A stretch of 64,000 bases of DNA from Rhizobium album (lineage in GTDB: Bacteria > Pseudomonadota > Alphaproteobacteria > Rhizobiales > Rhizobiaceae), in the NCBI RefSeq assembly GCF_003122325.1, contig NZ_QFBC01000002.1, positions 372,001-436,000 on the forward strand. Direction: 5' to 3'. Of the stretch, positions 20,377 to 22,749 are shown piece by piece; position 1 is the first letter of the stretch, and each line of letters starts with the position of its first letter. The notes below the pieces were generated by a model. It did no database searches and was not told the DNA's origin. It was given only the letters and a program-made list of their open reading frames with translations. The position numbers were made by a program, and so were the translations under genes.

Positions 20377-21669
20377 GTGAACATGACCCGCAACCTTCTC
20401 CCCATCCTCGCGCTGCTGTTCGGCACGCTGTTTCTCTTCCTCGGAAACGGCCTGCACAGCCTGCTGTTGCCCGTGCGTGGCGCAAGCGAAGGTTATTCGA
20501 CCACGGTGCTCGGCCTGCTCGGCACCTCCTGGGCCACCGGCTTCGTGCTCGGCTGCCTGCTGGCGCCGAACGTGGTGCGCCGGGTGGGTCACGTGCGTGC
20601 CTTTTCGAGCTTCATTTCGCTGCTGGCGATCAATGCCCTGGTGACGGGCATCGTCGTCGACGATATGTGGTGGATCGCGCTGCGCGCCGTCACCGGCTTT
20701 TCGACGGCCGGCACCTCGATGATCATCGAAAGCTGGCTGAACGAGCGCGCCACCAACAAGTCGCGCGGCATGATCTTTTCGCTCTATATCGGCATCACCC
20801 TGATCGGCTCGGTCGGCGGCCAGATGACCATCCCGCTGGCGGATGTCATGACGCCGATCCTGTTCATGGTCTGCGGCATCTTCTACTGCGTGGCGATGCT
20901 GCCGACGACGCTGTCGACCGCCGCCTCGCCGCAACCGCTGACGGCGGTGCGACTCGATCTTCGCGGGCTGTTCCGCAATTCGCCGGTCTCCTTCGTCGGC
21001 ATTCTCCTCGTCGGTATCGCCAACGGCGCCTTCGGCACGCTCGGCGCCGTGTTCGGCGCGGGAGCCGGCTTTTCGCAGAGCACGATCGCGCTGATGATGA
21101 GCGTGGCGATCTTCGCCGGCGCGCTGATGCAACTGCCGGCCGGCCGCGCCTCCGATCGCGTCGACCGCCGCTACGTGCTGGCGGCACTCGCCGCCGTCGC
21201 CGCCGTCTCCGGCCTGCTCTTCGTCATTGCCGCGCCCGCCGACGTCATGTGGCTGATGATCCTGGTGGGCATCTACGGCGCCACGGCCAACGCGCTTTAT
21301 CCGATCGCCGTCGCCCACGCCAACGACTTCGCCGCCCCCGAGGATTTCGTCAAGGTATCCGGCGGGCTGCTGCTGCTCTACGGCATCGGCACGATCATCG
21401 GCCCGACGCTCGGCGGCCCGATCATGTCGGCCTTCGGCCCCTACGCCCTGTTCGGCGTCACGGCGGTGGCGCATGTGCTGATCAGCACCTATGCCATCCT
21501 GCGCAGCCGGGTGCGCGCAGCCGTGCCCGCCGGCGACCGCGAAACCTTCACCACCGTCTCGACCAGCCCGCTCACCACGCCGGAAAGCCTGACGCTCAGC
21601 CCGCGCGCCGCACCGCTTCCGGAAGAGGGCGAATCTGCCGAAGACCGCTATCCGGGAGCCGCCATATGA
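20377..21669 (+). CDS. MFS transporter, YcaD-like
   Basis: 430-residue major facilitator with 12 predicted TM helices. The A-like loop motif is APNVVRRVGHVRAF after TM2, and RASDRVDRRYVLAALAA after TM8. The size and the motif FSTAGTSMIIESWLNERAT fit the YcaD subfamily; substrate unknown. The start is GTG at 20377 or ATG at 20383; neither has a clear ribosome binding site. Its stop overlaps the next start (ATGA), so DUF1192 is translationally coupled. Confidence 0.93.
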   Translation: MNMTRNLLPILALLFGTLFLFLGNGLHSLLLPVRGASEGYSTTVLGLLGTSWATGFVLGCLLAPNVVRRVGHVRAFSSFISLLAINALVTGIVVDDMWWIALRAVTGFSTAGTSMIIESWLNERATNKSRGMIFSLYIGITLIGSVGGQMTIPLADVMTPILFMVCGIFYCVAMLPTTLSTAASPQPLTAVRLDLRGLFRNSPVSFVGILLVGIANGAFGTLGAVFGAGAGFSQSTIALMMSVAIFAGALMQLPAGRASDRVDRRYVLAALAAVAAVSGLLFVIAAPADVMWLMILVGIYGATANALYPIAVAHANDFAAPEDFVKVSGGLLLLYGIGTIIGPTLGGPIMSAFGPYALFGVTAVAHVLISTYAILRSRVRAAVPAGDRETFTTVSTSPLTTPESLTLSPRAAPLPEEGESAEDRYPGAAI

Positions 21670-21857
21670 GTCTCTTCGACGACGAAGGCCCGAAAAAACC
21701 GGTGAAGCATGAGATCGGCTGCGACATTTCGCTGCTCTCCACCGATGAACTGCAGGGGCGTATCGATCTCCTGAATGCCGAGATCAGCCGCCTTAAAGAG
21801 GAGATCGGCCGCAAATCCGCGGGCAGGCGTGCCGCCGAAGATCTTTTTAGAAAATAG
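21666..21857 (+). CDS. DUF1192 small protein
   Basis: 63-residue acidic/helical protein of the DUF1192 family (MSLFDDEGPKKPVKHEIGCD, then STDELQGRIDLLNAEISRL). The C-terminal half is a predicted coiled coil. It overlaps the MFS stop by 4 bases. Function unknown; conserved as a small neighbour gene in rhizobia. Confidence 0.88.
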   Translation: MSLFDDEGPKKPVKHEIGCDISLLSTDELQGRIDLLNAEISRLKEEIGRKSAGRRAAEDLFRK

Positions 21858-21925
21858 TGAAATAAGACTGTCGTGGTGACATTAAGACATGTCTATCGAC
21901 AGTTTGTATTAATGATGGACAGAAA

Positions 21926-21940
21926 TTAACCATAAATTAA
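21926..21940 (+). promoter_or_regulatory. CtrA box 1 (TTAA-N7-TTAA)
   Basis: TTAACCATAAATTAA matches the full CtrA consensus, including the extended TTAACCAT half. About 35 bp downstream the candidate small RNA would begin, a spacing suited to CtrA activation. Binding itself is inferred. Confidence 0.75.
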
Positions 21941-21959
21941 GCTTCATGATCGATTATCG

Positions 21960-22063
21960 GGGTTATCCAGAGCTTCTGGATTCAGACAGTTTCACCGCTT
22001 GGCGAATTGGTCTGATTTTCTCCCTGTTTTACCTTGAGAGCCGCTTCCCGCGGCTCTTTTTTT
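21960..22063 (+). ncRNA. Candidate CtrA-controlled small RNA
   Basis: A stretch of about 100 bases with no convincing ORF, bounded by a CtrA box upstream and a textbook terminator downstream. It begins with a perfect 7-bp hairpin (21965-21971 with 21975-21981, loop GCT), then a single-stranded pyrimidine-rich middle, then the terminator stem. The 5' end is estimated from the CtrA box. A 67-codon open frame overlaps it (21946-22149) but runs past the terminator and looks non-coding. Confidence 0.55.
22037..22063 (+). terminator. Intrinsic terminator ahead of rcdA
   Basis: 8-bp stem AGAGCCGC/GCGGCTCT (22037-22044 with 22050-22057), TTCCC loop, then seven T. It ends a transcript that starts upstream of rcdA, not rcdA itself. 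Confidence 0.9.
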
Positions 22064-22093
22064 GTTGCATCGGAACTGCTAAAGTTGTGGGAA

Positions 22094-22108
22094 TTAACCC
22101 TTTCTTAA
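22094..22108 (+). promoter_or_regulatory. CtrA box 2, upstream of rcdA
   Basis: TTAACCCTTTCTTAA, a second perfect TTAA-N7-TTAA site, 31 bp after the terminator and 126 bp before the rcdA start. The likely promoter of rcdA lies just downstream. Confidence 0.75.
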
Positions 22109-22233
22109 GAAACGGCTTGCGCATTTCAGCTATTGATACCATCTTATAGCCAGAGAAAGCGCAGGCAGTGAAACTTTTAGCTGCTTACGGCATTACGTAA
22201 CCGAAGTGATGCGTTGAACAGGGAATTACAATA

Positions 22234-22749
22234 ATGTCAGAGCTTGGATTGAACACGATCAGCTTTGCCGGCCGGGCAGCATCCTCCTCGCAGTTCAAGA
22301 CACTGTATGCGGAAGGCATGGCGCTGGTCGAAGAAACGGCAAGCTATCTCGACGGGCAAGGCCGTGCGGCCTCCAAGGTTCTGCCGCGCATGGCTTCGGT
22401 TCTCTACGCAGCCGAGTCGATGCGCCTCACCACCCGCCTGATGCAGATGGCATCCTGGCTGCTGCTGCAGCGCGCCGTCAACAACGGCGAAATGACCCGC
22501 GACCAGGTTCTCTCCGAAAAGAGCAAGGTTCGCCTCGACAGCTTCAACGTCGATCGCCACGCTCCGGGCTGGCTGGACCTGCCGGAATCCTTCCGTGATC
22601 TGGTCGAACGCTCGCTTCGCCTGCAGAACCGCGTCGCCCTGCTCGACCGCGAAATCTATCGCCCGTCGGAAGACCCGATGCCGCATGACAACGAAAACAG
22701 CGTCCAGGCGCAGCTCAACCTGCTAAAGACGGCTTTCAACACCAACTGA
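22234..22749 (+). CDS. rcdA: RcdA, adaptor for CtrA degradation (DUF1465)
   Basis: 171-residue helical protein of the DUF1465/RcdA family. In Caulobacter RcdA works with CpdR and PopA to deliver the cell-cycle regulator CtrA to ClpXP. Family stretches: TLYAEGMALVEETASYLDGQ, MRLTTRLMQMASWLLLQRAV and LPESFRDLVERSLRLQNRV. The C-terminal tail (DNENSVQAQLNLLKTAFNTN) is probably flexible. Monocistronic: CtrA box upstream, strong terminator 32 bp after the stop. Confidence 0.93.
   Translation: MSELGLNTISFAGRAASSSQFKTLYAEGMALVEETASYLDGQGRAASKVLPRMASVLYAAESMRLTTRLMQMASWLLLQRAVNNGEMTRDQVLSEKSKVRLDSFNVDRHAPGWLDLPESFRDLVERSLRLQNRVALLDREIYRPSEDPMPHDNENSVQAQLNLLKTAFNTN

Follow-up and report, generated by a model that had tools for sequence, protein, structure and literature searches.

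Two perfect CtrA boxes stand upstream of rcdA in Rhizobium album, and they raise the question of whether both serve that gene or whether one of them belongs to a different transcript. In rhizobia, CtrA is essential and regulates the cell cycle. The original prediction for this locus placed both boxes in a possible feedback loop, in which CtrA would raise transcription of rcdA, the gene for an adaptor of CtrA destruction, and so promote its own removal. It also held that a terminator between the boxes implied two separately controlled transcripts. We analyzed a window of 64,000 nt, the whole stretch of DNA considered here (assembly GCF_003122325.1, contig NZ_QFBC01000002.1, positions 372,001 to 436,000, forward strand), together with related genomes.

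The interval upstream of rcdA and its two CtrA boxes

The genes of the region run in the order MFS transporter, DUF1192 gene, a gap of 376 bases, rcdA (DUF1465), rpmE on the opposite strand, and ABC transporter (Table 1). We take PF07323 (DUF1465) to be the family that contains RcdA; among 14 control genomes, it matched in Caulobacter vibrioides only. The putative rcdA promoter was drawn from conserved columns 3' of box 2 in 44 aligned sequences, and a sigma-70 scan of the stretch gave no match, at this promoter or elsewhere.

Table 1. Features of the rcdA upstream region, in window coordinates
Feature	Position	Strand	Basis
DUF1192 gene, upstream context	21666..21857	+	Pfam
CtrA box 1 (TTAACCATAAATTAA), presumed small RNA promoter	21926..21940	+	TTAA-N7-TTAA match
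Putative -10 element GATTAT	21952..21957	+	By eye
Small RNA gene, ~100 nt, BjrC1505-like	21964..22063 (about)	+	Presumed 5' end
Unpaired CUCCCUG core of the small RNA	22020..22026	+	Predicted fold
Intrinsic terminator: hairpin 22036-22058, then T run	22036..22063	+	Scan; A1 consensus stem
CtrA box 2 (TTAACCCTTTCTTAA), rcdA-proximal	22094..22108	+	TTAA-N7-TTAA match
Putative rcdA promoter: CTTGCG (22116-22121), 17 bases, CCATCT (22139-22144)	22116..22144	+	By eye
rcdA (DUF1465, PF07323)	22234..22749	+	Pfam, E 2.8e-59

The pattern TTAA-N7-TTAA occurs exactly twice in the window, at 21926 and 22094 as had been predicted, versus an expectation of 0.04 +/- 0.20, and none of 100 shuffled windows held two or more. 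Two half-sites 7 bases apart, in the form TAA-N7-TTAAC, are the pattern described for CtrA (PMC3616915; here and below, cited papers are drawn on through excerpts of their text). In the whole genome, TTAA-N7-TTAA was found at 56 places versus 47 for a reversed control pattern, which shows that the letters of the motif alone predict little, and the case for the boxes rests on position and conservation, not on the bare motif. Other perfect boxes in this genome (L280:5055-5166 and L002-L003) cluster before a Rem-like regulator and near flagellin genes, with the genes named by eye; these places fit CtrA control of motility.

The predicted small RNA between the boxes

The DNA between the boxes is predicted to specify an RNA with two stem-loops, a 20-nt unpaired stretch containing CUCCCUG, and a terminator (fold energy, -36.7 kcal/mol, with z at -5.3 and none of 200 shuffled sequences equally stable). 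The terminator-like hairpin has 9 pairs and is followed by a T run. Our scan found two such sites in the stretch versus 1.6 expected from shuffles, and the match itself is not significant. The evidence for the terminator comes instead from its conservation: the consensus stem in our alignment A1 has 7 pairs, 4 of them with changes on both sides, and RNAalifold on A1 recovered the terminator alone. The two upstream stems were sought with a script for which 5 pairs are enough to count as a stem, run without a shuffled control; it found them in 115 of 116 and in all 116 loci, in 62 and 49 different versions. The core sequence TCCCTG lies within 116 of 118 order-level Rfam matches and in all 62 A1 rows, the latter a biased count because rows were chosen with a motif filter. 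The putative -10 element reads TATTAC in many Rhizobium loci.

The RNA family is already known. It is the Rfam family BjrC1505 (RF02356), which is said to have been first described in Bradyrhizobium. The match in the window spans 21919-22063 with 32.2 bits (E 3.8e-4), under the gathering score of 50; at the equivalent place in the same GTDB family, scores were 67 to 74 in three genomes and 40 in a fourth. The window RNA is like BjrC1505 in its place before rcdA, which the family keeps across the order, in its TCCCTG core and in its terminator, and it is unlike BjrC1505 in its second stem-loop and in the bases flanking the core, which are of the Rhizobiaceae type. By its score, it is a divergent relative that is not a member under Rfam's rule, and we refer to it as BjrC1505-like. 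The RF02356 consensus carries a CtrA-box-like UUuA-N7-UUaa at its 5' end, where box 1 sits. We read the distal unit as a conserved small RNA gene, which the original prediction had missed.

A 67-amino-acid open reading frame at 21946-22149 gave no Pfam match. GANTC is the CcrM methylation motif; a copy, GATTC, lies at 21979-21983 in the 3' arm of the first small RNA stem, and GANTC is not enriched in the stretch. Two other identities were rejected. An Rfam match to suhB/mmgR (26 bits, with a cut-off of 41) falls mainly on the terminator and the sequence flanking it, and ecpR1 of Sinorhizobium meliloti is located between divK-pleD and rpmG (PMC4414408).

Distribution, conservation and separation of the two units

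Of 150 Hyphomicrobiales genomes, 126 gave a match to the RNA family, 107 of them above the Rfam cut-off; none of the 14 control genomes, Caulobacter vibrioides among them, gave one. The rcdA gene was present in 136 of the 150. Both were present in 121, on a single contig in 118 and on different contigs in 3, and in 117 of the 118 single-contig genomes, the RNA shared the strand of rcdA and preceded it by at most 1 kb (1224 bases in the remaining one). The distance from the RNA to the rcdA domain in those 117 genomes was 153 to 550 nt. Five genomes had the RNA only and 15 had rcdA only; a slow search of these 15 with our own model, R1, gave an RNA above 35 bits in 6 and the terminator part alone in 3, and two loci could hardly be judged (L158, with 104 bases, and L234, with N near the start). 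The RNA was present in 121 of 136 genomes with rcdA versus 5 of 14 without it (Fisher p, 1.9e-5), where the 14 include four genomes of 1.3 to 1.4 Mb and one that is 61% complete. The presence of the RNA is thus tied to that of rcdA, and the RNA is not wholly independent of the gene. A second BjrC1505 match was seen elsewhere in 4 of the 150 genomes (G017, at C3:296794-296931, G097, G024 and G049).

Synteny was also clear among 101 Rhizobiaceae genomes, sampled at about one per genus: 92 had the RNA, 99 had rcdA and 92 had both, of which 90 had the two within 1 kb on the same strand. At the class level, 142 genomes gave an R1 match in 24 and rcdA in 53. By comparison of the tables by eye, 10 of those 53 have the RNA on the rcdA strand, at most about 1.6 kb upstream of the gene, 8 of the 10 pairs being outside the order; the other 43 do not have this arrangement. 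The remaining R1 matches were mostly weak and lay away from rcdA or in a genome without it.

Box 1 is conserved in position at the presumed promoter of the RNA. At the 5' edge of the RNA, a perfect box was found in 46 of 118 order-level loci versus 0 to 5 for eight other spacings, and a box with at most one mismatch in 108 versus 15 to 45; with two mismatches allowed, the contrast was lost (113 versus 70 to 109). Among 80 named Rhizobiaceae loci, box 1 lies at -92 to -99 from TCCCTG and is perfect in 67 (0 to 3 for other spacings), with one mismatch in the other 13. Its half-sites are 91 to 100% conserved and its spacer positions 40 to 82%. When one mismatch was allowed in these loci, box 1 was found in 80 of 80 and the control spacings in 1 to 61, controls that are not clean because the region is AT rich. 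Outside the order, box 1 within one mismatch was present in 7 of 8 loci versus 0 to 2 for six other spacings.

Since the RF02356 model spans box 1, we repeated the box test with R1, in which the box is not modeled, although a few A1 rows include part of it, and the structure consists of the terminator pairs only. All of the best 30 of 93 family-level R1 matches had a box about 90 nt before CTCCCTG, perfect in 27. A recount of those 30 loci with a cruder seed finder gave 29 with a box, 26 of them perfect, and 0 to 1 perfect for eight other spacings. In the genus-level recount of 30 loci with one mismatch allowed, the box was found in 29 versus 1 to 4 for seven spacings and 23 for spacing 3; the last count arises, by eye, from the second half-site and a conserved GCTTT after it.

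Box 2 has a narrower distribution. All 80 named Rhizobiaceae loci have it in perfect form, with 0 of 80 for other spacings, and among 30 genus-level loci, 23 have it at 60 to 420 bases past the RNA core (22 in a recount, with 0 for other spacings). In the interval before rcdA at the order level, a perfect box was found in 9 of 118 loci versus 0 to 1 for other spacings, and a box within one mismatch in 29 versus 5 to 21. Taken with the order-level counts for box 1, these results show that box 1 is the wider feature and that box 2 is mainly a feature of the Rhizobiaceae. Loss of either box in close relatives, which would have spoken against the original prediction, was not seen in the 80 named loci. 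It may well be through box 2 that CtrA acts on rcdA. In the same loci, a wider block around box 2 (AAACTGTGG...TTAACCCTTTCTTAAGAAACG.CTTGCGCATTT; 22080-22140) is conserved past the half-sites, and its spacer is conserved, unlike that of box 1.

The two units are separable, each with its own box. The RNA and rcdA are 338 kb apart in genome G317 (loci L338 and L335) and 4.6 kb apart in G304 (L337 and L336); in both, rcdA retains a perfect box of the box 2 type, and the RNA retains a box, likewise perfect, at about 90 nt from its core on the 5' side. The five genomes without rcdA also keep the RNA and its box, perfect in two and with one mismatch in three. In four of these five loci, the downstream frames resemble rpmE on the opposite strand, and in G131 and G017, an ABC transporter lies further downstream of the rpmE-like frame (all by eye). 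The otherwise nearly invariant CCCUGUU is changed in these two genomes (L236 and L238), while the stems, the terminator and a perfect CtrA box are kept. The change may hint at the pairing partner of the core.

Probable control by the two boxes, and known relatives

We consider it probable that the locus consists of two neighboring units open to separate control by CtrA, one made up of box 1 and the RNA and the other of box 2 and rcdA. Box 1 most likely drives a separate and widely conserved small RNA rather than rcdA, and if so, CtrA probably has an RNA output beside the gene for its own degradation adaptor. In the mechanism that we infer, box 1 would lie at the promoter of a BjrC1505-like small RNA, about 100 nt long, that would act in trans, start near 21964 and end at the terminator at 22063. 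CtrA most likely activates this RNA from box 1, and in the Rhizobiaceae it would also contact the rcdA promoter at box 2, which lies upstream of that promoter. The RNA probably acts on target mRNAs by pairing through the unpaired CUCCCUG. The original prediction was right about the anatomy, two units with their own boxes and a terminator between them, as borne out by the hairpin, its conservation and the separated loci. Its claim that both boxes serve an rcdA feedback loop was not supported in that form, since box 1 accompanies an RNA that also occurs in genomes lacking rcdA.

A loop in which both boxes raise rcdA transcription, so that CtrA promotes its own degradation, is the most durable of the alternatives and still doubtful. 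Such a loop is not a new idea, and it is not established for rhizobia. In Caulobacter, rcdA is activated by CtrA, and CtrA control of the gene has been predicted as conserved (PMC4433202, PMC2877005), for this group as early as 2010 (PMC2877005). A CtrA motif has been noted upstream of an S. meliloti rcdA start site (PMC3616915), and in three agrobacteria, rcdA is preceded by two or more start sites and by possible CtrA sites (PMC10469942). The invariance of box 2 in the named Rhizobiaceae loci and its retention with rcdA in G317 and G304, where the RNA is elsewhere, also favor the loop. However, the terminator separates box 1 from rcdA, box 1 tracks the RNA and not rcdA, and the proximal box is found within one mismatch in only 29 of 118 order-level loci, versus 5 to 21 for other spacings. 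Moreover, although ChIP-seq in S. meliloti placed CtrA at the rcdA promoter region, CtrA depletion left rcdA expression unchanged (PMC4433202).

It is unlikely that the RNA, driven by CtrA, represses rcdA by pairing at its start site, so that CtrA would protect itself, an effect of opposite sign to the predicted loop. The window RNA segment UCCCUGUU is fully complementary to AACAGGGA before rcdA; of the 80 named Rhizobiaceae loci, 65 have CAGGGA before rcdA and 46 have AACAGGGA there, and the mean pairing z in the 80 was -2.4. By pairing at its start, rcdA ranked fourth among 49 genes of the window, and 4.7% of 316 background genes were at or below the rcdA median (L073 excluded). These ranks depend on gene starts from a crude open reading frame picker, and the z values on approximate in-house shuffles. 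Yet the mean z over 116 order-level loci was -0.12, no better than shuffled, and in its own genome, with the same crude gene starts, rcdA ranked just 28 of 393 sampled genes. The RNA segment is near constant between loci whereas the rcdA site varies, and CUCCC would pair with many ribosome-binding sites. A wider search for the exact seed complement before ATG in the R. album genome gave 13 rows at 11 places; 10 of these places were examined with the same gene starts (cysteine synthase, TatA-like and others, named by eye). A longer form of the complement had any match in just 1 of 4 distant genomes, and no conserved target was found.

A similarly low probability attaches to the possibility that another regulator uses box 1 or that CtrA represses there. 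Box 1 lies near the presumed -10 element, a position from which CtrA may work as an activator or as a repressor. The spacing of the half-sites is, however, that of the CtrA pattern (PMC3616915), and in S. meliloti, CtrA occupied the rcdA promoter region (PMC4433202).

Less probable again is that rcdA has here an attenuator-bearing 5' leader and that there is no separate RNA gene. A leader would account for the shared strand and the adjoining position in nearly all genomes with both, but not for the element being retained in five genomes without rcdA, lying 338 kb and 4.6 kb from it in G317 and G304, and varying in distance from the rcdA domain by nearly 400 nt. That both boxes are chance AT-rich matches is scarcely credible: the modest genome-wide excess over the control pattern and the weak spacing controls at loose thresholds would allow it, and the window expectation of 0.04 and the perfect boxes at fixed places in 67 and 80 of 80 named loci, versus 0 to 3 and 0 for other spacings, speak against it.

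Beyond the two-unit reading, we regard it as an even question whether the alphaproteobacteria have in the BjrC1505-like RNA an old small RNA, activated by CtrA, that became fixed beside rcdA as the RNA arm of a module for CtrA removal. If this is true, the regulated transcript would be the RNA, which would explain CtrA occupancy without a change in rcdA expression in S. meliloti, and a CtrA-box RNA beside the gene for the CtrA-destruction adaptor would add an RNA output to the CtrA circuit. Our literature searches found no link of this RNA to CtrA or rcdA in the excerpts that they returned.

Among known RNAs, sm84/SmelC671 of S. meliloti is probably this RNA, judged by length, strand and orientation of the neighbors; the two were set together by description only, and the S. 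meliloti rcdA locus tag was sought and not found. In the excerpts, sm84/SmelC671 is 100 nt long on the + strand between two + strand genes, SMc03988 and SMc03989, has Blast matches in R. leguminosarum, R. etli and A. tumefaciens, was expected at about 110 nt with a Northern band of about 80 nt, and was assigned a sigma-70 promoter (PMC2573895, PMC2873474, PMC7143759). Caulobacter CcnA, also compared by description only, is alike in being a noncoding RNA of the CtrA circuit that has a predicted CtrA site and is putatively activated by CtrA; it differs in modulating ctrA and gcrA, and its authors, in the text excerpted, report no clear S. meliloti homologue (PMC8959179). EcpR1 and GspR of S. meliloti are likewise rhizobial trans-acting small RNAs, and they act on cell-cycle genes (PMC4414408, PMC5928217), but GspR is described in its excerpt as having no known promoter signature upstream (PMC5928217), unlike the window RNA with its box. 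The CUCCCUG core itself resembles the anti-Shine-Dalgarno motifs of AbcR and other rhizobial small RNAs (PMC7143759).
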